Below the pieces are notes generated by a model. It saw nothing but the letters and a program-made list of their open reading frames with translations, was not told the origin of the DNA and did not search any database. A DNA stretch of 10,599 nucleotides, taken from an uncultured Eubacteriales bacterium (GTDB lineage Bacteria; Bacillota_A; Clostridia; Christensenellales; Aristaeellaceae). A program made the translations under genes and the position numbers. The first letter of the stretch is position 1, and the number at the start of each line of letters is the position of its first letter. The stretch is taken from contig USEE01000028.1 in NCBI GenBank assembly GCA_900553645.1, forward strand, positions 1-10,599, read 5' to 3'. Positions 110 through 10,599 of the stretch are shown piece by piece.

Positions 110-144
110 TATATGTGAGCTTTATAAGGCCATATATGTAACTT

Positions 145-155
145 GAGGGGGGTGG
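145..155 (+). promoter_or_regulatory. Ribosome binding site that fixes the spoIIAA start
   Basis: The purine-rich run GAGGGGGGTGG ends 5 nt before ATG 161. An alternative in-frame TTG at 143 has no Shine-Dalgarno sequence upstream and would place this run inside the coding region, so ATG 161 is preferred. Confidence 0.75.
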
Positions 156-160
156 CTTCG

Positions 161-481
161 ATGCCGGGCGAACGGGCGCACGTAACCGTGACGGCAAACC
201 TGCGCGGCGAGCTGGATCACTTCAGCGCCGACAGCGTGCGCACAATGCTGGACGAACTTACTCAGGATAAGGCAGTTAAGTACCTGATACTGGACATGAG
301 CGGCATGACGTTTATGGACTCATCAGGCGTTGGCGTGATAATCGGCCGGTACAAGCGCATGGCGGCGCGCGGCGGCGGCGTGAAGGTGTGCGGCGCAAGC
401 CGTCAGGTGGACAGGCTGATGGAGCTGGCCGGTCTGTACAAAATCGTGCAAAAATGCGAGCGGGCAGGTGACAGAGTATGA
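161..481 (+). CDS. spoIIAA: Anti-sigma F factor antagonist SpoIIAA (STAS domain)
   Basis: This is the anti-anti-sigma factor of the sigma-F switch. When dephosphorylated in the forespore it binds SpoIIAB and releases sigma-F; SpoIIAB inactivates it by phosphorylating one serine. The 106-residue protein is a single STAS domain with the beta strand YLILDMSG (41-48) and the signature FMDSSGVGVIIGRYK (51-65). Ser54, the first serine after Asp53, corresponds to the phosphorylated Ser58 of B. subtilis. The family is usually about 110-117 residues, so it is complete. ATG 161 was chosen over TTG 143 because of the Shine-Dalgarno site just before it. Its stop overlaps the spoIIAB start (ATGA), implying translational coupling. 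It is the first gene of the operon, behind a sigma-H-like promoter. Identity is secure from motif and gene order. Confidence 0.96.
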   Translation: MPGERAHVTVTANLRGELDHFSADSVRTMLDELTQDKAVKYLILDMSGMTFMDSSGVGVIIGRYKRMAARGGGVKVCGASRQVDRLMELAGLYKIVQKCERAGDRV

Positions 482-924
482 CGTGCGTAAATGAAATGCG
501 GGTGGACTTCCTCGCCTGCGGCGAAAACGAGGGCTTTGCGCGGCTGTGCGCGGCGGCGTTCATAATGCGCCTTAACCCCACTGTCGATCAGATGAACGAC
601 ATAAAGACCGCCGTGAGCGAGGCTGTGACCAACGCGATAATACACGGCTATGACGGCACGCGCGGCATGGTGCGCCTGAGTGGGGAGATATTCGACGACA
701 ATTCGGTTGCGTTCGAGGTGCACGACGCGGGCTGCGGTATAGAGGATGTGGAGCGCGCCCGACAGCCGTTTTACACATCGCGCCCCGACATGGAGCGCTC
801 CGGACTGGGCTTTACCGTGATGGAGACGCTAATGGACACCGTGGAAGTGACCTCGCAGCGCGGGCGGGGCACTAAGGTGCGCATGACCAAGCAGCTGGGC
901 GCGCCGGATGAGGCCGCACGATGA
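478..924 (+). CDS. spoIIAB: Anti-sigma F factor SpoIIAB (serine protein kinase, GHKL fold)
   Basis: SpoIIAB binds and holds sigma-F in the pre-divisional cell and the mother cell, and uses ATP to phosphorylate SpoIIAA. The 148 residues show the whole GHKL ATP-binding fold: N box with Glu48, Asn52 and His56 in SEAVTNAIIHGY (47-58), G1 box DAGCG (83-87), the ARQPFYTSRPDMERSGLGF stretch (94-112) with the glycine-rich lid, and the closing TKVRMTKQL (132-140). These track the B. subtilis protein closely in sequence and length (about 146 residues). The start at 478 is supported by AGGTGA (466-471) six bases upstream and by the N-terminal NEM match to B. subtilis. It overlaps spoIIAA by 4 nt and sigF by 17 nt, a compact arrangement consistent with coordinated stoichiometry of the three partners. 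Confidence 0.97.
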   Translation: MTCVNEMRVDFLACGENEGFARLCAAAFIMRLNPTVDQMNDIKTAVSEAVTNAIIHGYDGTRGMVRLSGEIFDDNSVAFEVHDAGCGIEDVERARQPFYTSRPDMERSGLGFTVMETLMDTVEVTSQRGRGTKVRMTKQLGAPDEAAR

Positions 925-1621
925 AACGATGGAGTACATCCGCCGCGCGCAGGCGGGAGATAAGGCGGCGCTGGACGCGCTGGTAAGCGACAATATAGCG
1001 CTGGTCAAATCGATTGCGGCGCGCTTTGGCGGCCGGGGCGTGGAGTGGGACGATTTGTTTCAACTGGGCTGCATGGGGCTGGTCAAGGCGATTCGCGGGT
1101 TTGATTTAAGCTATGAAGTCAGGTTTTCGACCTACGCGGTGCCCATGATAATGGGCGAGATAAGGCGCTTCCTGCGCGACGATGGTCAAGTGAGGGTGTC
1201 GCGCGTACTACGCGAAAAGGCGCGGGCGTGTTTTAAGGCAAGGGAGGAACTGGAGCGCGAACACGGCCGCGAACCCACGATAGAGGAACTGGCCGGGCGC
1301 GCAGGGCTGGACGTGGCCGACGCGGTGGAGGCAATGGCCGCAGTTCGCAGTGTGCGCTCGCTCAGCGAGCCGGTGGGCGAGGACAGCATGACGTTGGGCG
1401 ACACGATAGGCAAGGACGATTCCGAACGGCAGATAGAGCATATGGAGCTGGAGCGCGGCATAAGCGCGCTGGAAAGCCGCGAAAGCGAGCTTATTAATCT
1501 GAGGTATTTTCAAAACCTCACGCAGTCGCAGACCGGCGCAAGGCTGGGCATATCGCAGGTTCAGGTGTCGCGCATGGAAAGCCGGATAATGGCTAAACTG
1601 CGGGAGCGGATGAGCGGGTAA
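908..1621 (+). CDS. sigF: RNA polymerase sigma-F factor (SpoIIAC), early forespore sigma
   Basis: This sigma factor directs the first forespore-specific gene set once SpoIIAB lets go of it. The 237-residue product is a sigma-70 family protein of the sporulation group. Region 2 holds DDLFQLGCMGLVKAIRGFDL (48-67) and VRFSTYAVPMIMGEIRRFLR (71-90); region 3 follows; region 4 ends in the helix-turn-helix around 202-227 with LGISQVQVSRMESRI. These last motifs are typical of SigF/SigG, and position after spoIIAA-spoIIAB decides for SigF. It is about 18 residues shorter at the N terminus than the B. subtilis protein (about 255). The start is uncertain: ATG 908 overlaps spoIIAB and lacks a strong Shine-Dalgarno, and ATG 929 (residue 8) is equally plausible under translational coupling. 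It ends in tandem TAA codons before a hairpin. Nine of its 13 isoleucines use ATA. Confidence 0.96.
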   Translation: MRPHDETMEYIRRAQAGDKAALDALVSDNIALVKSIAARFGGRGVEWDDLFQLGCMGLVKAIRGFDLSYEVRFSTYAVPMIMGEIRRFLRDDGQVRVSRVLREKARACFKAREELEREHGREPTIEELAGRAGLDVADAVEAMAAVRSVRSLSEPVGEDSMTLGDTIGKDDSERQIEHMELERGISALESRESELINLRYFQNLTQSQTGARLGISQVQVSRMESRIMAKLRERMSG

Positions 1622-3009: not shown

Positions 3010-3052
3010 TAAAAAAACAAGGCACAGGCGACCGCAAAGAATCGCCCATGCC
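3010..3052 (-). terminator. Strong intrinsic terminator after the GH127 gene
   Basis: Read on the minus strand, an 11-bp stem (GGCATGGGCGA, 3052-3042, with TCGCCTGTGCC, 3031-3021, including two G-U pairs) closes a 10-nt loop. It is followed by TTGTTTTTTT (3020-3011). It starts 18 nt after the GH127 stop. It ends the activase / radical enzyme / GH127 operon and isolates the dehydrogenase gene downstream. Confidence 0.88.
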
Positions 3053-3070
3053 CTGCAAAAAATCATGTCC

Positions 3071-4744
3071 TTAAATCCGCGTAACCACCGGGTAAACGCT
3101 GAACGGTTCGTCGCGTATTTCCAGATAAGGCCAGTACTCGTGCCGGTCGTCGCCGCGCAGTTTAAGTTTCAACCCATCGCTGGCCGGTTCAAACCACTTC
3201 TGCGGCTCCTCAGGGTTCCAGCTCACATGCACCGGGCCGGGCGCGCCCATCGCCGCGTACAGCAGCGGGCCGTACTCCAGCGCCCAACGCTCCTCGCGCG
3301 GCTTCTCCTCGCCGCCGGTGTAGCGCGTGGTCTTGAAACCAAACGGCAGATCAAGCTCAAATACGTCGCCCGCCTTAACGCCCTCAATCGTCTCATAATA
3401 TGACTTGCCGCCCTCGACCGCCCAGCGTGGATGGCGCAGCTTGAGCGTGAACGGCGCGGCGCAGTCCACGACGGTTATGCGCACATGGCCGCTTTCAGGC
3501 ATATCGGTTTCGCAGCGCAAAGTGACATTGCCCGCGTCCAACGGCAGAGTGGCCTCGCTCTGCGAATAAATGTCCGCATACACGGTGTCGCCAGTGTACG
3601 TATACAGGAACTGAGGCAGCAGCGCCGCCAGCCGTGTGCCCATAGCAGAGCAGCACGTCGCGCGATCCAGCCAGCGCCAGTCCTTGGAGCGCTCAAGAAA
3701 GTTGAGGTAGTGATAGCCCTTATCCTCGACCTGCGCTGCCAGCAGCACGTTGTATATCGAGTTTTCCATCTCGTCCACATAATGCGCGTCGTCGGGGAAC
3801 AGCCGGTGCATACGCTGGTTTATCAGTACCCAGAAGTTGGTGGAGCACAACTCGTTATAGTGATGCGACGGGTCGAGCCAGTTGCAGCCGGGGAAGTACT
3901 TGTCGTCCTCGCACATGTTGATGCCGCCGCCCACATGCTGCCACTTGCCTTCGTACATCTTGAGCGCGTGGCGTACCGCGTCGATGTAGATTTGTTCGCC
4001 GGTCGCGCGGTATATGTCCAGGTAGCCCTCCAGCGTGGTAAGCAGCGTGCTGTGCGGATGGTTGCCGGGATGCTCGTAAATGGCGCGCTGGTCGTCGTTA
4101 ATCAGCTCCTCCAGCCACCACTTTTCCTGATACCATTTTAGCGCGGTGTCGATGTCAGCGCGCTTGCCGACCGGGCTGTCGTACAGGCGGGGGTTGGCCA
4201 GGATGCCCTGAAAGCCCAGATTCATGTCCTTGACAAACGGCAGCACTTCGCACTGATTAAAGAAGTCGCCAAAGCCGCGCACCAGTTCAAACGCGCGCTG
4301 TTCGCCCGCGTATCCCGCGTCCAGCAGTCCGAACGTTATCCACGCGCGCGTGTAGTTGGGGTATTCGCGCGTGCGGAACTCGTCGCGCGTTATCGGCAGT
4401 ATGAACCCGTCGCTTTCACGCCCGGCCTCGATGCAGTCCAGCAGCCTGCGCACCATGCCGCGCAGTTCCGCGTCCTCGCCCCAGAGCAGACTTGCGCCCG
4501 CGCCCATCATAAATTCACCCGCAGTCTGGCCCTTCAGATTGTTCTCAAAATGCCCTGCGTCGCTGGCATATGGTACGCCCGGCGCGGGTTTACCCTGATG
4601 CACGCGATACCAATAGAGCATCCTGTCCACATCAAAGCCCTTTAGAAAGCTTACGTTGTTGTCAAAAGCCTTTTTAAGCCGCCCGCCGGTCAGCTTAACG
4701 CCGCCCATCGGCGCCTTAAGCGCATATTCCACAGCATATTTCAT
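3071..4744 (-). CDS. GH127-type glycoside hydrolase (DUF1680; probable beta-L-arabinofuranosidase-like)
   Basis: A zinc-dependent cysteine glycosidase. The best-known member, Bifidobacterium longum HypBA1, frees L-arabinose from beta-L-arabinofuranosides such as those on plant hydroxyproline-rich glycoproteins. Its Zn ligands and nucleophile (Glu338, Cys340, Cys417, Cys418) have clear counterparts here: Glu298 and Cys300 in YNELCSTNF (296-304), and Cys364-Cys365 in RATCCSAMG (361-369); Cys364 would be the nucleophile. Glu279 is a possible acid/base residue. The N-terminal two thirds should form the alpha-helical barrel (PHSTLLTTLEGYLDIYRATG at 230-249 is typical), followed by beta-sandwich segments (LRHPRW 436-441, ALEYGPLLYA 488-497). 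At 557 residues it is about 100 shorter than HypBA1. No signal peptide, so it should act in the cytoplasm. ATG 4744 has GAGGTGGAG 5 nt upstream. It lies 23 nt after the radical enzyme gene. Family is confident; substrate is inferred. Confidence 0.88.
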   Translation of the reverse strand: MKYAVEYALKAPMGGVKLTGGRLKKAFDNNVSFLKGFDVDRMLYWYRVHQGKPAPGVPYASDAGHFENNLKGQTAGEFMMGAGASLLWGEDAELRGMVRRLLDCIEAGRESDGFILPITRDEFRTREYPNYTRAWITFGLLDAGYAGEQRAFELVRGFGDFFNQCEVLPFVKDMNLGFQGILANPRLYDSPVGKRADIDTALKWYQEKWWLEELINDDQRAIYEHPGNHPHSTLLTTLEGYLDIYRATGEQIYIDAVRHALKMYEGKWQHVGGGINMCEDDKYFPGCNWLDPSHHYNELCSTNFWVLINQRMHRLFPDDAHYVDEMENSIYNVLLAAQVEDKGYHYLNFLERSKDWRWLDRATCCSAMGTRLAALLPQFLYTYTGDTVYADIYSQSEATLPLDAGNVTLRCETDMPESGHVRITVVDCAAPFTLKLRHPRWAVEGGKSYYETIEGVKAGDVFELDLPFGFKTTRYTGGEEKPREERWALEYGPLLYAAMGAPGPVHVSWNPEEPQKWFEPASDGLKLKLRGDDRHEYWPYLEIRDEPFSVYPVVTRI

Positions 4745-4767
4745 GTTTACTCCACCTCGCATAATAA

Positions 4768-6810
4768 TCAAACCGAATATGAAGTCCGCGCGATGATCTG
4801 CTCCTGATACGCGCGGTCGAGCAGTACGAACCGCCCGCTCCAGCCCCATACGCGCACGATGAGGTTGGCGTAGTTCTCGGGGTGTGTCTGTGCGTCGCGC
4901 AGCTGGTCAACGTTGACCGAGTTAAGTTGCAGCTGATGCCCGCCCAGCTGTATAAAGCTTCGCACGAGCTGTGCCACCTTGGTCAGACCGTCCTCGCGCT
5001 TAAACACGCTGTCGTGCAATTCCAGCGTCAGCGGCCCGCCGTTCATGCAGCGCCCGACCTCGGGGCGCGCAAACGCCTGTATCACGCTGAGCGGCCCCGC
5101 GTCGCGCAGCAGCAGCGACGGCGAGAAGTTGGCCGGGAAGGGCTCGCCCGGCTCGTGGCCGTCGCAGGTATAACCCAGCTCCTTCGCGTGCCATATGTAG
5201 TACATCGCCGAGCCCGTGCCCGCGCGGAATATGCCGCCGCGCTCGTTGACAAGTCCTTTCAGACTGTCGGCAAACGCGTCCAGCACATCGTCCGCCAGTG
5301 AATCAGCGGCTTCATCGCGTCCCAGCTTGGGCGCGTCGCGGCGCAGTATTCCCAGCAGCTCCGCGTCGTCCCTGAAATCATTTTTAAGGGCATTGAGCAG
5401 CCGTTCGCGCGCCAGCGTGCCCTTATCAAACACAAACTGCTTAACGGTTGCAAGCTGATCCACTGCCAGCGTAAAGCCGGTGCCGTGTATGCCATAGTTG
5501 TTGTATTTGGCGCCCAAGCTTACATCATGGCTCACGTCGCTCATCAGCACCGACGCATACGGCGCGGGTTCCATGTAAAGCGGGTGCAGCGTATCGGCAA
5601 GCTGTACCGCGCGCGTACGCATCTCCTGCCTGAACGCGTCCATAAGCTCGTCGAATGTCGCGCAGTCCATAAGCTTTGCGCGTATAACGTCGTCGGCGGT
5701 CTTTGCCAGTGAAATCGCGCCGATGTTGGGTATATCCATCGCTGCGCCGGGTATTATGAATTCCCAGCACGCCGCCACGACGTAGTTGCGCGCGTCCTCG
5801 GGCGCATAGCCCATGTTTATCAGCGCGGGAATAACCGCGTCGTCGTTGGCGTACTGCGGGAAGCCCAATCCCTGCCGCGTGAGCAGCGTGCAGCGCTCGT
5901 ATACCTCAAGCGGTGTGCTTTTGTTTACGCGCAGATTGATCTTGGGGTCGATCATGCGCATCTCCAGACTTGCGGTCAGGCACAGTTCGGTGAGCTTGTT
6001 GAACGCATCGCTGCCCTGAGCGTCGCAGCCGCCCAGTACCATGCTCTGGCCGTTATCGCCCTGCTGCATACCCTGATATATGTCGCTGTCCAGATTGAAC
6101 GACAGGAAAAAGTCCTCCAGCAGCGTCAGCGCGCCCGCCTCGTCCAGCGCTCCCGACGCGATGTCGCTCTCGTAATAGGGCAGCATGTACTGGTCGAATC
6201 GTCCCACAGTGTTGTGGTAAACGTTGCTGGCCCACAGCACGAAGTGCAGCACGCGGAACGTCTGCAGCGCCGCCCAGAACCCGGTCGCGCCAGTGCGTAT
6301 GCTCTGTCTCAGCGCCCGTGCGAGCTTGCACTCGCCGCGATCGGCCAGCAGCTCGGCGTGCCTGTCTGCAAACGCCAGCGTCGCGTCGATGCACTCGACG
6401 GCCGCCTGGGCATACTCTGCGTCCCTGGCCTCGGCGAGTATGCGAGCGCGCCGGGGCAGAAGCCCGTGCGCAATCACGTCGGCATAGTCGTACGCGATGT
6501 TGCATACGCGCCCCTGCTCGTGTACATAATGTCCCTTTGTCAGCTTTTCGCGTTCGCCGGGCGCGTATATGTCGGGAAAGTCGGTTATCGTGCGCATACA
6601 TACAAACGCCGAGCCGTTCAGCCCGCCCACGCGCTCGCGCTCAAGCAACAGCCTGAGCCGCAGTGCGGCGCGGCGTTCCAGCGACAGCGCGGGATTCTGT
6701 ATCGCGCCTTCAATAGCCGTGCGCTCCTCGTCCGAAAGCTTGCGGCGCAGCGCGCGATGATCGCCGCGCAGTACGCCGTCGCGCATTGCGCGCATGTTTT
6801 CACTTAACAT
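4768..6810 (-). CDS. Glycyl radical enzyme of unassigned function (PFL-like fold, eliminase-type active site)
   Basis: An anaerobic radical enzyme of the pyruvate formate-lyase / glycerol dehydratase superfamily. The 680-residue protein has the active-site Cys348 in VVAACWEFIIPG (344-355). The Cys-x-Glu pattern (Glu350) matches radical dehydratases, choline lyase and related eliminases, not the Cys-Cys of pyruvate formate-lyase. Supporting family blocks are GQSMVLGGCDAQGSDAFNKL (254-273), GLGFPQYANDDAVIPAL (314-330) and LGGHQLQLNSVN (622-633). The radical site is Gly656 in RVWGWSGRF (653-661), where Trp replaces both the usual small residue and the Tyr around the glycine. The Cys-to-Gly distance (308) is near that of PFL (316), but the protein is about 70 residues shorter on the N-terminal side. 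ATG 6810 has GAGGTG 5 nt upstream and overlaps the activase gene by 7 nt. A sugar, polyol or aglycone substrate is inferred only from the neighbouring glycosidases. Confidence 0.9.
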   Translation of the reverse strand: MLSENMRAMRDGVLRGDHRALRRKLSDEERTAIEGAIQNPALSLERRAALRLRLLLERERVGGLNGSAFVCMRTITDFPDIYAPGEREKLTKGHYVHEQGRVCNIAYDYADVIAHGLLPRRARILAEARDAEYAQAAVECIDATLAFADRHAELLADRGECKLARALRQSIRTGATGFWAALQTFRVLHFVLWASNVYHNTVGRFDQYMLPYYESDIASGALDEAGALTLLEDFFLSFNLDSDIYQGMQQGDNGQSMVLGGCDAQGSDAFNKLTELCLTASLEMRMIDPKINLRVNKSTPLEVYERCTLLTRQGLGFPQYANDDAVIPALINMGYAPEDARNYVVAACWEFIIPGAAMDIPNIGAISLAKTADDVIRAKLMDCATFDELMDAFRQEMRTRAVQLADTLHPLYMEPAPYASVLMSDVSHDVSLGAKYNNYGIHGTGFTLAVDQLATVKQFVFDKGTLARERLLNALKNDFRDDAELLGILRRDAPKLGRDEAADSLADDVLDAFADSLKGLVNERGGIFRAGTGSAMYYIWHAKELGYTCDGHEPGEPFPANFSPSLLLRDAGPLSVIQAFARPEVGRCMNGGPLTLELHDSVFKREDGLTKVAQLVRSFIQLGGHQLQLNSVNVDQLRDAQTHPENYANLIVRVWGWSGRFVLLDRAYQEQIIARTSYSV

Positions 6811-7670
6811 ACCAGCACCTCGATTCCTTTGTCGGTAAATGGCTGAGTAAAGGCGTTCGGCTCGACGCTTTCGTCAAAGCCGGGTGAATAATCCATACCC
6901 AGCCGCGAATACTTTGCGCCCGCCGCCTTGTTGTATTTAAGCAGCTCGACGCGTATAAGTCCATTTGCGTCCGCAACCCATTTTGCGGTTTCAGTCATGT
7001 TTTCGGGGGTGTCATTTACGCCGGGTATCAGCGGCACGCGCGCGATGAATGGCTTGCCGCTGGATTTGAGCAATTCCAGGTTTGCGCGTATCCGCGTATT
7101 GTCAACGCCTGTCCAGTGCTTATGCGCCGCCGGGTCGGTATGCTTGATGTCGAACATGATAAGGTCGATTTCCCGTATCACGTCATGAAACACTTCGCTA
7201 TGCAAATAACCGCTGGTTTCGACCGCCGCGTGCAATTCAGGCAGAAGCCGTCGCGTTTCAATCACAAATTCAGGCTGAGCCAGCGCCTCGCCGCCTGAAA
7301 ATGTAATTCCGCCGCCGTTCATTATCAAAAGCTTACTTATCCTCCGCACCCGCGCGGCAGCTTGTTCGGACGATACCTCCCGTCCGCACAGCTCGATCAG
7401 CCCGCCGGGACACGCCCGCACACATGCTCCGCACGCGACGCACCTGCTGGGCGAGGGACAGACGCGTTCGCACTCGCCGCAGTGCCGGCATCGTTCGCGC
7501 GCAATCATGCGCTGTACGCGCCGCTCCAGCCCCTCCGGGTTGTGACACCACCGGCAGCGCAGCGGACAGCCCTTCATGAATATCACGCAGCGTATGCCCG
7601 GCCCGTCGTATATTCCGAATTCCTCAATGTCAAATATCATGCCGCTGGCCGTATGTATCACCTCCGACAT
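6804..7670 (-). CDS. Glycyl radical enzyme activating enzyme (radical SAM)
   Basis: This enzyme cleaves S-adenosylmethionine to a 5'-deoxyadenosyl radical and abstracts hydrogen from the glycine of the partner radical enzyme, presumably Gly656 of the adjacent gene product. The 288 residues begin with the family hallmark IYDGPGIRCVIFMKGCPLRC (20-39); Cys35, Cys39 and Cys42 (CxxxCxxC) hold the catalytic 4Fe-4S cluster. A ferredoxin-like insert carries two further 4Fe-4S sets: Cys61, 64, 67, 71 and Cys77, 80, 83, 87. This arrangement is typical of activases for dehydratase and decarboxylase-type enzymes and absent from classical PflA. The SAM-binding GGE lies in TFSGGEAL (123-130), and DIKHTD is at 174-179. 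The start is uncertain: ATG 7670 lacks an upstream Shine-Dalgarno; Met11 (7640) is an alternative. It is promoter-proximal and precedes its target enzyme, the reverse of pflB-pflA or cutC-cutD. Confidence 0.94.
   Translation of the reverse strand: MSEVIHTASGMIFDIEEFGIYDGPGIRCVIFMKGCPLRCRWCHNPEGLERRVQRMIARERCRHCGECERVCPSPSRCVACGACVRACPGGLIELCGREVSSEQAAARVRRISKLLIMNGGGITFSGGEALAQPEFVIETRRLLPELHAAVETSGYLHSEVFHDVIREIDLIMFDIKHTDPAAHKHWTGVDNTRIRANLELLKSSGKPFIARVPLIPGVNDTPENMTETAKWVADANGLIRVELLKYNKAAGAKYSRLGMDYSPGFDESVEPNAFTQPFTDKGIEVLVC
7657..7665 (-). promoter_or_regulatory. Misplaced Shine-Dalgarno-like sequence inside the activase start region
   Basis: GGAGGTGAT is a nine-base complement to the 16S rRNA 3' end, but it lies 5 nt after ATG 7670 and 16 nt before ATG 7640. 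Neither spacing is normal for initiation. It leaves the true activase start open and may reflect a non-standard start or internal pausing. Confidence 0.45.
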
Positions 7671-7759
7671 TATAAACGGCAGTATAGTTATGCTGTATCA
7701 GAGCGAATTCACATAATAACATCTATTAATCTATTTAATGTAACTCCGGCAACACGCAA

Positions 7760-7788
7760 ATTATACAGCATTCGCGCGCAGTGCGCAA
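7760..7788 (-). promoter_or_regulatory. Sigma-A-like promoter of the activase / radical enzyme / GH127 operon
   Basis: On the minus strand TTGCGC (7788-7783) and a perfect TATAAT (7765-7760) are 17 nt apart. The -35 box matches only 3 of 6 consensus positions, which suits a regulated promoter. The leader before ATG 7670 would be roughly 80 nt. Confidence 0.6.
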
Positions 7789-7981
7789 TAGTGCCTTTAC
7801 CTACACGTAAAATAAATTTGGAAAGAGACTGTATTGGACTATACAGATATGCCCGCCGCATATGTCATAACAACACATCGACGAATGTGCTATATTCAGC
7901 CGCTTAAAGTGATATAATCGATAATCTGCATCAAAATCGATACGTGGGATTGTCATATCATACGAATGTAACGACGGCATG

Positions 7982-8010
7982 TTGCAATACAAACGATTTA
8001 TTGTTATAAT
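7982..8010 (+). promoter_or_regulatory. Sigma-A-like promoter of the regulator / alpha-mannosidase operon
   Basis: TTGCAA (7982-7987) and a perfect TATAAT (8005-8010) are 17 nt apart, placing the transcription start near 8017 and about 25 nt before the regulator ATG. The repeat block TGTCATATCA / ACGAATGT (7951-7969) sits just upstream of the -35 box, where an activator or repressor could act. Confidence 0.72.
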
Positions 8011-8042
8011 AATCCCGTGATTACAAGGCAGGGGGAATAGAC

Positions 8043-9206
8043 ATGGCACATGGCCGACAACCCAAGCCGAAGCCGCTGTATCAGAACGTCATGGACGACA
8101 TTTTGACGGCGATCGATTCGGGCGGGTTTTCGTTTGACAAGCCGATATGCACCGAAAGCGGGCTTATGGATAAGTACGGTTACAGCCGCATAACCGTGCG
8201 CCGCGCGTTGGACGAGCTGGAGAACATGGGCGTGCTGTACCGCAAGCGCGGCGTGGGCAGCTTCGTAAGCCGCGATTCATACCTTTCCAGCAAGGAAGAC
8301 TCGGTAAGCGTCGCGGGCAAGCTGTTCGCATTCATATGGCCGTTCAACATATCGCGCACCAGCCTCGCGGTCACGTTTCAGTCGGCCAACGATTATCTGC
8401 TGGCGCACGGCTGCTATGGCTCGGTATTCATTACCGAGGACGAGGGCGAAAAGAAAAGCAGCATGGTGCTGAGCCGCCTTGCGCATACCGACGTGGCGGG
8501 CATTGCGTATTATCCGCTCAAAAACGATATACACATAGACCTGCTTAACCCATTCGTATTCAAAAATCGCCCCGTGGTAATAATGGACATGCCCAGCGGC
8601 TGTTCGTATCTGCCCAGCGTGACCAGTGACAACGCGGGCGGCAGTCTGAAACTGATGGAGCATCTGACGATGCTGGGGCACAGGAAGATCGCCTATATAT
8701 CCGGCATAGGCGCAATGCAGCGCGCCACCGTGGGCGACCGCATAGCCGGGTATCTGGCAGGGCATTCGCGCGCGGGCCTGCCGATAACGCCCGACTTTAT
8801 ACATACCGACGTAACTGCGGACAAGTGGACTGCGCCGCTTGGCGAGCCGGACAGCCTGCGCGCACTGCTCGAGCATCTGGTGTCGTGCGGCGTTACTGCG
8901 GTGCTTGCCGAAAACGACGCGCTGGCCTACCATATAATAGTTACCTGCCGCGATCTGGGCATAGACGTACCCGGCCGTCTCAGCGTATGTGGCTTTGACG
9001 ACAGCGAATGGGCGGCCCTGCTTGAGCATTCCGAACCGTCCGCGCATCTGACAACCGTGCGTCAAGATCAGGCCGCAATGGGGCGCGCGGTGGCTGAACT
9101 CCTCTATAAAGGACTCAACGAACCAATAGGCATACACAAACCCGTGGTAGTACCCACCACATTGATAACAGGCGATACGACCGCAAAGGCGTATCAATCT
9201 GAATAA
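8043..9206 (+). CDS. AraR-type transcriptional regulator (GntR winged helix plus LacI-type sugar-binding domain)
   Basis: A likely sugar-responsive regulator, usually a repressor released by its effector. The 387-residue protein joins an N-terminal GntR winged helix (about 12-77; YGYSRITVRRALDELENMGV at 45-64, RKRGVGSFV at 67-75) to a LacI/periplasmic-binding-protein-like domain (about 90-380). Recognisable segments of the latter are TSDNAGGSLKLMEHLTMLGH, the AENDALAYHI ligand-domain stretch, GIDVPGRLSVCGFDD and the late LTTVRQD. The same architecture is found in B. subtilis AraR, which senses L-arabinose, an apt parallel to the GH127 gene nearby. ATG 8043 is preceded by AGGGGG (8030-8035) at 7 nt. 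It is divergent from the activase operon and co-directional with the mannosidase gene 12 bp downstream, so it probably controls both arms and itself. Eighteen of 23 isoleucines are ATA. Effector and operator are inferred. Confidence 0.9.
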   Translation: MAHGRQPKPKPLYQNVMDDILTAIDSGGFSFDKPICTESGLMDKYGYSRITVRRALDELENMGVLYRKRGVGSFVSRDSYLSSKEDSVSVAGKLFAFIWPFNISRTSLAVTFQSANDYLLAHGCYGSVFITEDEGEKKSSMVLSRLAHTDVAGIAYYPLKNDIHIDLLNPFVFKNRPVVIMDMPSGCSYLPSVTSDNAGGSLKLMEHLTMLGHRKIAYISGIGAMQRATVGDRIAGYLAGHSRAGLPITPDFIHTDVTADKWTAPLGEPDSLRALLEHLVSCGVTAVLAENDALAYHIIVTCRDLGIDVPGRLSVCGFDDSEWAALLEHSEPSAHLTTVRQDQAAMGRAVAELLYKGLNEPIGIHKPVVVPTTLITGDTTAKAYQSE

Positions 9207-9218
9207 GGAGCTGAACAC

Positions 9219-10599
9219 ATGATAACCGAAAACGGCATGAATCAGACAAAGAATAAGCTGACTCGCTTCATCGGCACGCTGAAGTCGCTGATGTTCAGAC
9301 CTGTAGGCAGCATCGAAACCACGCTGTATCAGACAAAACAACCGCTGAACGAAATCCCGGATGCGCGCCTGTTCAAGCCCGCCGATTCGCCTGCATGGGG
9401 CGGCGATGGCGTGTACGGCTGGTTTAAGGGCGAATACACTGTGCCCGCCGAGCTGGACGGAAAGGCGATTTTCCTGTGGCCGCGCATGAAGTTTTATGAG
9501 GCAACGCTGTGGGTCAACGGCAAAATTCATTCCAATTACGCCGCTAAATTCGTGGAGGGCTCGCACGGCAACCACTATTGCAACCGCATAACGCCCTGCG
9601 CCAAGGCGGGCGAGAAGTTCGACTTCGCGCTGGAGGGCTATGCGTATCACGATATGCCCGGCACTCAGCCGCTCTCTGACGACGGCAAGGTGGATGAATT
9701 CGAGTATGCCGTGGGCGGCATGGACATATGTCTGCGCGACGATGAAGTGATGGACTTCATGTTCGATCTGGACACGCTGCTGTCGTTGTGCCGTGCGTTG
9801 GACGCAAGCTCGTTCCGCAGGGCTGAGGTAGAAAACGCGCTGTACAATGCCCACCTCAAGCTGTTTTACGATCCCGCAATGTGCACCGACGAGGAGTTCT
9901 GCTCCGGTCTGCGCGCCGCCGCGCCGATACTCAAGCAGCAGCTTGCGCGCAAAAACGGCGACGCAACTCCGCTTGTGGGCCTGATTGGTCATAGCCATAT
10001 GGACACGGCATGGCTGTGGCCGATAAGCGAGACGAACAAGAAGTGCGCCCGCACATATGCCAATCAGCTGAACCTGATGGCCGAATATCCCGAGTATCGC
10101 TTTGTACAGTCCTCGGCGTATCACAGCGATATAATCCGCCGCCAGTATCCCGAACTGTTCAGCCGCATACAAAAGGCGGTGGCCGAGGGCAAGTATGAAC
10201 CCAACGGCGGCGTGTGGGTGGAGTGCGACTGCAACCTGACCGGCGGCGAAAGCATGGTGCGCCAGTTCCTGTGGGGCCAGCGCTTTACCCGCAAGTATTT
10301 TGGCTACACCGCCGACAGCTTCTGGCTGCCCGACACGTTCGGCTATTCGTTCGCGATTCCGCAGATAATGAAGGAAAGCGGCGTAAAGTATTTCCTTACC
10401 ACTAAAATAGCGTGGAACGATACGACCAAGTTCCCGTATACGTCGTTCTACTGGCAGGGTCTTGACGGCACGCGCGTGCTGACGCATTTCAACCGCACGC
10501 ACATCGGCCCCACGCCCGAAACATTGCACGAAATAACCGACGGTGCCGACGCGATACGCGAAAACCGCGCCGCGCCCCTGCGCCTGTTCTCATATGGCA
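9219..10599 (+). CDS. GH38 alpha-mannosidase, 3' end beyond the window
   Basis: A retaining, zinc-dependent exo-alpha-mannosidase that should trim mannose from imported glycans. The open frame runs without a stop for 460 codons to the window edge; bacterial relatives are about 1000 residues, so roughly half is missing. Residues 58-145 look like the N-terminal beta domain (SPAWGGDGVYGWFKGEY). The catalytic domain opens with GLIGHSHMDTAWLWPISET (254-272), where His260 and Asp262 are the expected Zn ligands. WLPDTFGYSFAIPQI (369-383) carries the probable nucleophile Asp372, equivalent to Asp204 of Golgi mannosidase II. The fourth Zn ligand, a later His, lies outside the window. No signal peptide is visible, so a cytoplasmic location is likely. 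AAGGAG (9205-9210) overlaps the regulator stop and lies 8 nt before the ATG. GH38 is confident; linkage and substrate are not known. Confidence 0.92.
   Translation, partial: MITENGMNQTKNKLTRFIGTLKSLMFRPVGSIETTLYQTKQPLNEIPDARLFKPADSPAWGGDGVYGWFKGEYTVPAELDGKAIFLWPRMKFYEATLWVNGKIHSNYAAKFVEGSHGNHYCNRITPCAKAGEKFDFALEGYAYHDMPGTQPLSDDGKVDEFEYAVGGMDICLRDDEVMDFMFDLDTLLSLCRALDASSFRRAEVENALYNAHLKLFYDPAMCTDEEFCSGLRAAAPILKQQLARKNGDATPLVGLIGHSHMDTAWLWPISETNKKCARTYANQLNLMAEYPEYRFVQSSAYHSDIIRRQYPELFSRIQKAVAEGKYEPNGGVWVECDCNLTGGESMVRQFLWGQRFTRKYFGYTADSFWLPDTFGYSFAIPQIMKESGVKYFLTTKIAWNDTTKFPYTSFYWQGLDGTRVLTHFNRTHIGPTPETLHEITDGADAIRENRAAPLRLFSYG

Follow-up and report, generated by a model that had tools for sequence, protein, structure and literature searches.

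A glycyl radical enzyme encoded with a GH127 glycosidase in an uncultured clostridial bacterium and its possible role in the use of free pentoses

The divergent locus and its glycyl radical enzyme

We analyzed a stretch of 10 599 nt from an uncultured Eubacteriales bacterium (contig USEE01000028.1 of assembly GCA_900553645.1; the whole stretch is called the window), in which an oxygen-sensitive glycyl radical enzyme (GRE), discussed below as a candidate dehydratase of pentoses, is encoded together with its activase and a glycosidase of family GH127. These three genes form one operon on the − strand, divergent from a regulator and a GH38 glycosidase. The activase (6804..7670, − strand; 288 residues) is a radical S-adenosylmethionine (SAM) protein of the GRE-activating type (TIGR02494, 254.0 bits at a cut-off of 174.35). 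Its gene overlaps by 7 bases with that of the GRE (4768..6810, − strand), a protein of 680 residues with the Pfam domains PF02901 and PF01228 that belongs to an apparently uncharacterized short family. The third gene (3071..4744, − strand) encodes the GH127 protein (PF07944, 85.2 bits, cut-off 24.9), in which the E-x-C ... CC motif is kept. The mechanical open reading frame (ORF) of GH127 starts at 4849; we set the start at the ATG at 4744, which matches the relative in locus L012 and stands behind the ribosome-binding-like sequence GAGGTGGAG, and the protein therefore has 557 residues and begins 23 bases past the GRE stop codon. At the operon end we observed a hairpin resembling an intrinsic terminator (3017..3056, read 3056-3017 on the − strand), with a stem of 17 pairs and a T-run; it is the longest among 12 terminator-like hits in the window, a number that equals the shuffle mean of 12.2. 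An initial annotation of this DNA had described a tightly spaced operon ended by a terminator and, as divergent arm, an AraR-like regulator followed by a GH38 gene, and all of this was confirmed.

The regulator (8043..9206, + strand) combines a GntR-type helix-turn-helix domain (PF00392, 45.1 bits) with a LacI-type sugar-binding domain (Peripla_BP_3, PF13377, 96.6 bits), the architecture described in PMC4666351 for AraR of Bacillus subtilis. The GH38 gene (9219..10599, + strand) begins 12 bases further on; the window covers the first 460 residues and stops short of the 3′ end of the gene, and the match to Glyco_hydro_38N (PF01074) reaches 230.6 bits at a cut-off of 25. The region between the two arms (7671..8042, no strand assigned) is a putative promoter and operator region, for which a palindrome scan gave CTGTATTGGACTATACAG at 7829-7846 and a promoter scan gave a promoter-like site, TTGCAA-17-TATAAT, at 7982-8010 on the + strand (4 promoter-like hits observed versus 6.2 in shuffles). 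The hexamers CTGTAT or ATACAG occur four times within about 150 bases of this region (7693, 7763, 7829 and 7841) and ten times window-wide, and the sites between 7693 and 7846 are a candidate operator of the regulator.

Both domains of the GRE exceed their cut-offs (PFL-like, 255.7 bits; Gly_radical, 61.9 bits). The thiyl Cys348 (codon 5769-5767), Glu350 (5763-5761) and the radical Gly656 (4845-4843, all on the − strand) are invariant across an alignment of 70 rows; the active site reads Cys348-Trp-Glu350, with Cys348 and Glu350 aligned to C433 and E435 of glycerol dehydratase. The AlphaFold2 model (pLDDT 92.9) matches GRE folds, and at 65 of 81 loci, counting the window, the gene right next to the GRE encodes an activase. 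With its domains, the Cys-x-Glu and radical Gly loop and a linked radical SAM activase, the protein has the features of the eliminase-type superfamily; it is an eliminase-type GRE, for which the glycyl radical and a dehydratase activity are predicted.

None of the models of characterized families that we tested fits this protein, and this part of the initial annotation's interpretation is supported. We obtained 248.9 bits for the HypD equivalog NF043068 (cut-off 1100), 283.2 bits for TIGR01774 (PFL2/glycerol dehydratase subfamily, cut-off 678.2), 241.6 bits for PRK09983 (cut-off 1109), which we take to be the PflD model, and 50.8 bits for TIGR01255 (pyruvate formate-lyase, cut-off 994.2). An identity as pyruvate formate-lyase, whose active site is Cys-Cys, was rejected on this last score and on the Cys-Trp-Glu sequence. 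Class III ribonucleotide reductase, which uses a nucleotide substrate and an external reductant, shares 12–14% identity with the GRE. According to PMC12441222, PflD and YbiW convert 1,5-anhydromannitol-6-phosphate and 1,5-anhydroglucitol-6-phosphate to 1-deoxyfructose-6-phosphate; there the substrate is phosphorylated by the phosphotransferase system, whereas the GRE loci carry symporters or ATP-binding cassette (ABC) importers.

Hydroxyproline from arabinosylated glycoproteins had been named initially as a testable substrate, which would make the enzyme HypD-like. GH127 includes HypBA1-type enzymes, HypD is likewise a GRE eliminase with Cys and Glu, and upstream of activase and GRE in L010 and L014 we noticed by eye a pyrroline-5-carboxylate reductase-like gene together with a MurA-like gene. 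However, the score stays far under the HypD cut-off, and Asp278 and Asp339, described as essential in HypD in PMC7077986, are replaced by Asn200 and Asn253 in our alignment, which starts behind H160 and leaves that residue unplaced. The recurrent partners of the GRE are sugar genes, and we consider hydroxyproline an extremely unlikely substrate.

Another explanation holds that the enzyme dehydrates a small diol from pentose or deoxyhexose breakdown, such as ethylene glycol, 1,2-propanediol or glycolaldehyde hydrate, in the manner of glycerol or propanediol dehydratase. Glycerol dehydratase is the best-scoring solved relative (233 bits), the isomerase, kinase and class II aldolase genes of L040 and L054 would yield C2 and C3 fragments, and DhaK-, DhaL- and HpcH/HpaI-like genes were seen by eye about 7 kb downstream of the GRE in L019 (19221-21694), past genes on the opposite strand. 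The B12-independent glycerol dehydratase (1r8w) has, however, 26% identity to the GRE and is about 100 residues longer; its Val434 is replaced by Trp, and the positions of His164 and Asp447 are Asn104 and Asn362, invariant in the 70 rows. In the GRE operons of 13 Bacteroidota loci, whose genes were named partly by eye, we saw no isomerase, kinase or aldolase. Microcompartment genes were likewise not seen, though no search aimed at them was made. No diol context was seen here; a diol dehydratase was rejected as the best fit, and we regard a small diol as an improbable substrate.

Further genes of the window lie outside the two arms. On the operon strand, beyond the terminator, a protein of the lactate/malate dehydrogenase family (1700-2728, − strand) scores under the NCBIfam cut-offs listed. 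Three consecutive genes at 143-1621 (+ strand), the last two with ATPase and sigma domains by Pfam, are presumably SpoIIAA-, SpoIIAB- and SigF-like, and because of this row the host looks endospore-forming.

Gene neighborhoods of the relatives

A GRE relative is encoded on 504 of the 507 pattern-matching genome contig stretches, and all locus counts use the best 80 of these 504 (at E ≤ 1e-60 there are at least 7340 homologues, but this threshold may take in other kinds of GRE, and the number does not measure the size of the family). Neighboring ORFs were called with a codon-usage score and clustered; most counted clusters were named by Pfam from one representative each, and the names of the LacI regulators, RbsA/RbsC and further ABC permeases were assigned by eye. 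Because singleton genes were mostly unscanned, the neighbor counts are lower bounds. Relatives occur in Bacillota, Bacteroidota, Verrucomicrobiota and Spirochaetota, and the family is widespread in gut bacteria and apparently uncharacterized.

Within six genes of the GRE we found GH127 in 12 of the 80 loci, GH51 in 11, either of them in 18, an aldose epimerase in 8 and a labeled sugar transporter in 38. A labeled glycosidase, sugar transporter or sugar enzyme is present in 52 loci, or in 39 of the 50 uncut ones (at least three genes on each side of the GRE); 11 of the 28 loci with no labeled sugar gene are shorter than 9 kb. The initial annotation had named a lack of glycosidase neighbors in most genomes as evidence against its reading; this is partly the case, with a labeled glycosidase near the GRE in only 28 of 80 loci but a labeled sugar gene of some kind in the 52. 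Labeled genes are more frequent within three positions of the GRE than beyond: 30 of 339 versus 11 of 465 for glycosidases (p = 6e-5), 41 of 339 versus 21 of 465 for transporters (p = 9e-5) and 23 of 339 versus 15 of 465 for other sugar enzymes (p = 0.03), in a test that is partly choice-dependent because the labeled clusters were picked for recurring in the 80 loci.

The tree rows nearest the window are Clostridia and form a clade of 15 rows. L001 and L012 have the same activase-GRE-GH127 order; there the protein encoded directly after the GRE is 66% and 71% identical to the window GH127, and this bears out the earlier proposal that the GRE is tied to sugar release. Two loci far from the window in the GRE tree also have a related GH127 (39–40%), encoded immediately behind the GRE in L073 and two genes ahead of it in L072. 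For the window GH38, BLAST against all genes called in the 80 loci gave no further match. A weak GH57/GH38-like neighbor is present in L019 and L020, where the GH38 model stays below its cut-off. The E-x-C and CC residues of GH127, presumably the zinc/cysteine catalytic residues, are aligned in 10 proteins, and 435 of 7995 scored candidates are homologues at E ≤ 1e-50. Beyond its own subfamily, the GH127 proteins encoded at these loci share only 24–31% identity with the window protein; by its profile the latter is a GH127 member, for which a β-L-arabinofuranosidase activity is predicted.

We also searched one order of 396 genomes and found the GRE in 21 (E ≤ 1e-150) and a window-type GH127 in seven (E ≤ 1e-80), of which five have at least 54% identity and two (G292 and G312) have 36–38% and lack the GRE. 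The GRE is present in four of the five genomes with at least 54% versus 17 of the 391 others (p = 3e-5), in four of seven when the two are included (p = 2e-4) and, minus the three genomes known beforehand, in one of two versus 17 of 391 (p = 0.09). In G500 the GH127 gene is followed directly by a radical SAM GRE activase, with the GRE on another contig; in G200 GRE and GH127 lie on different contigs, and G591 has GH127 and no GRE. From these three genomes and the orthologous orders the GRE–GH127 link looks real, yet not obligatory. A pairing by chance in the window would agree with the 28 of 80 loci that have a labeled glycosidase and with G591 and G200; against it stand the orthologous order in L001 and L012, the related GH127 in L072 and L073, the association across the order, including its weaker value after removal of the known genomes, and the activase in G500, so that we consider chance very unlikely.

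Other neighborhoods are more diverse. A FucI-like isomerase, FGGY or PfkB kinases and a class II aldolase lie near the GRE in L013, L032, L040, L054 and L078. In the two Diplocloster loci (L031 and L034) the GRE has an FGGY kinase, DeoC, an aldo/keto reductase and DUF4867 on its two sides and, further, a xylose-isomerase-like TIM barrel, an SMP-30-like lactonase and an MFS_2 transporter; possibly these loci encode a complete deoxy-sugar pathway. Proteins of cluster c18 (500–660 residues) are found beside or near the GRE in L015, L017, L021 and L022; their representative has no Pfam match and one weak PDB hit (E = 0.033). An HpaB-family protein by Pfam, by eye of the 4-hydroxybutyryl-CoA dehydratase type, is encoded downstream of the GRE in L008 (3655-5115). 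In a Parabacteroides metagenome-assembled genome (MAG) the GRE appears split in two frames of 91 and 563 residues (L045:3328-5301), by frameshift or assembly error.

Bacteroidota operons and the genes of arabinose use

In Parabacteroides chinchillae DSM 29073, an isolate genome with neither AraA nor AraD, a regulator with a Peripla_BP_3 match below the Pfam cut-off lies next to a row of activase, GRE, a major facilitator superfamily sugar symporter, GH127, aldose epimerase and a second GH127. A tandem repeat, ACTGGTACGRACTGGTACGR, was first seen in the intergenic DNA of L063, L064, L067 and L077; as putative operator of the GntR/Peripla_BP_3 regulator it is also written ACTGGTACG. Scanning 20 loci (18 Bacteroidota, 2 Verrucomicrobiota), we found it in nine, near the regulator, activase, GRE, GH127 or a melibiase-type gene, with 18 hits versus 3.0 in letter shuffles and 2 of the 18 plainly inside genes; the pattern was drawn from four of the scanned loci, and L047, L048, L049, L051 and L079 are independent of it. 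Ten whole genomes, searched with up to 3 mismatches, gave 33 hits versus 9 for the reversed control. By their coordinates, each of the 13 hits with no more than 2 mismatches belongs to a GRE locus or precedes either a GH127-GH51 fusion gene (G030) or a SusC-SusD-...-GH127 operon (P. chinchillae). Several hits with 3 mismatches (L099, L100, L104 and L110), which fall within genes of other kinds or at a distance from them, look like chance. We infer that in part of the Bacteroidota the repeat is a shared putative operator of GRE operons and unlinked arabinofuranosidase clusters.

A single protein of 1482 residues that joins GH127 to a GH51-type arabinofuranosidase is encoded at L112:5465-9913. 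In G030, a Bacteroides MAG with the GRE locus L079, we found beside this fusion an aldose epimerase, AraR (Nudix; Pfam AraR_C), GH51, transketolase (tkt) and rpiB, with nothing between AraR and GH51 and no symporter (araP), araD, araA or araB at this locus. These G030 genes, from the epimerase to rpiB, are 46–88% identical to their counterparts in L114–L118, where present. In L114, L116 and L117 a symporter stands before AraR, and the interval from AraR to GH51 holds araD, araA and an FGGY kinase; L115 and L118 have araD-araA-kinase and lack the symporter and GH51 there, and L114 showed no rpiB (names come from Pfam for the L112 genes and four L114 genes, and from BLAST, AraA/AraD matches and inspection by eye for the remaining ones). 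A search of the whole G030 genome gave no AraA over the cut-off (21 bits) and no AraD match, and the same two negatives hold for G023 and G029. The AraB query matched weakly in the control genome G179, and the relatives bear, by eye, two unlike FGGY kinases there. PMC4666351 reports that AraR binds L-arabinose, that in every genome with araR the reconstructed regulon contains araMPRDAB, and that L-arabinose mutarotation in the periplasm is the function of AraM. The GRE loci resemble this Bacteroides pathway in mutarotase, GH51, symporter and L-arabinose-type regulation; it is, however, an isomerase-kinase-epimerase route, and the G030 ara locus lacks these three enzymes as well as the symporter. 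Most simply, the GRE operon of G030, which brings a symporter, regulator, mutarotase and GH127 of its own, would do the work of araP, araA, araB and araD.

The GRE was found in none of 150 further genomes of the same family (Bacteroidaceae) sampled around G030 (E ≤ 1e-100), and AraA exceeds the cut-off in 99 of the 151. AraR is present at E ≤ 1e-60 in 65 sampled genomes, and AraA is missing in four of these: G030 itself and three others (G086, G113 and G122) whose AraR proteins have just 52–58% identity. AraA is kept in all 36 other sampled genomes with AraR of at least 63% identity. Outside the sample, the GRE carriers titled Bacteroidaceae are L064, L067 and L077, and two of the three have AraA. 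A simple complementarity of GRE and AraA was rejected, since it fails generally: AraA is over the cut-off in 32 of 80 GRE genomes (31 strong) versus the 99 of 151 Bacteroidaceae, a single family.

A possible radical route for free pentoses

From these comparisons of sequences and neighborhoods, we think that the GRE probably dehydrates a free pentose by radical chemistry, with L-arabinose as the likeliest one, and would act in the first catabolic step after arabinofuranosidases and import. More tentatively, such a free-aldose radical dehydratase may attack imported L-arabinose itself and, in some of the gut Bacteroidota, have taken the place of L-arabinose isomerase, ribulokinase and epimerase, within a redox-neutral, deoxygenating pentose fermentation of several anaerobe phyla. 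Arabinofuranosidases (GH127/GH51) would release L-arabinose and a symporter or ABC system would import it; the activase would place the radical on Gly656, from where it would move to Cys348. GRE eliminases abstract hydrogen at a carbon that bears a hydroxyl group and expel the neighboring group. In the sugar, the Cys348 thiyl radical would abstract hydrogen at a carbinol carbon, whose hydroxyl Glu350 would deprotonate, and the neighboring hydroxyl would depart as water. On the ring form, abstraction at the anomeric C1-H with loss of the C2 hydroxyl would give a 2-deoxy-pentonolactone, while C3-H abstraction with loss of the same hydroxyl would give a 3-keto-2-deoxy-pentose, as in ribonucleotide reductase. 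C1 of a cyclic aldose has a weak C-H bond and an acidic hydroxyl, and the mutarotase of the operons and a lactonase-type gene in two loci agree with C1 chemistry, a fit and no proof; in Bacteroides the mutarotase serves the classical arabinose pathway too. The C3-H/C2-OH chemistry would fit the loci with DeoC and aldo/keto reductase.

Several observations weigh against this proposal. Only a minority of loci, and 23 of 50 among the uncut ones, have a labeled glycosidase no more than six genes away from the GRE, and GH127 adjoins the GRE in just 3 of the 15 tree rows of the window's branch. An AraD-type protein is present in 16 of 17 searched genomes, 14 of them from this branch, with G004 as the only genome without it; these proteins may be ascorbate-type paralogues, and because of their presence a loss of the ara route is unsupported here. 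For a pentose in the clostridial branch, synteny and regulator type are the arguments. Some clostridial and spirochaete loci have a FucI-like isomerase, FGGY/PfkB kinase, class II aldolase or DeoC, and therefore members of the family may use other sugars or continue by other downstream routes. Among the Bacteroidota and Verrucomicrobiota loci, 11 of the 20 scanned have no ACTGGTACGRACTGGTACGR repeat, and among the genes under it we saw none whose enzyme would take the proposed product further. The gene swap in G030 is one event (Fisher p = 0.027), in a MAG at the center of the sample, and 52 of the 151 sampled Bacteroidaceae lack an over-cut-off AraA anyway. Among 18 GRE-bearing Bacteroidota, AraA is present in 9 (including G026 and G220, titled Bacteroidaceae), AraD in 11 and neither in 7, and several are incomplete MAGs; given these numbers and the 32 of 80 above, the routes often coexist.

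The family may also be polyspecific, with the GRE acting on another sugar, a polyol, an anhydro-sugar or an aglycone that these glycosidases set free and with L-arabinose used just in the Bacteroidota branch. This would suit the partners, which vary across the tree (GH36-type, GH78, GH106, sulfatases, FucI/FGGY/aldolase and DeoC/AKR/lactonase), and the GH38 gene of the window, and with PflD and YbiW it is known that GREs can act on sugar-like substrates (PMC12441222). On the other hand, GH127, GH51, mutarotase and GntR/PBP-type regulators recur together in the Bacteroidota loci, and the window has GH127 along with its AraR-type regulator. We therefore regard another substrate as possible but rather doubtful, and infer for the dehydration of L-arabinose that the clostridial and Bacteroidota branches would share the same sugar.

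L-Arabinose is a main pentose of dietary fiber, and its bacterial catabolism is taken to begin by isomerization or oxidation. In the matches listed from the open literature, no title or abstract concerned this GRE family or a GRE for arabinose, a weak absence that does not extend to subscription papers. The review PMC11574389 describes many abundant gut GREs as having unknown functions, and the word arabinose does not occur in it. GREs acting on sugar-like phosphates are already known; new here would be a GRE family tied to the use of free pentoses. If true, entry by a radical step would add a new branch to carbohydrate metabolism and would help to explain genomes that are rich in arabinofuranosidases yet without AraA. 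Many gut proteins that at present bear the label pyruvate formate-lyase, a large group, would thereby gain a function, and the step would place free-sugar metabolism beside the chemistry of ribonucleotide reductase.

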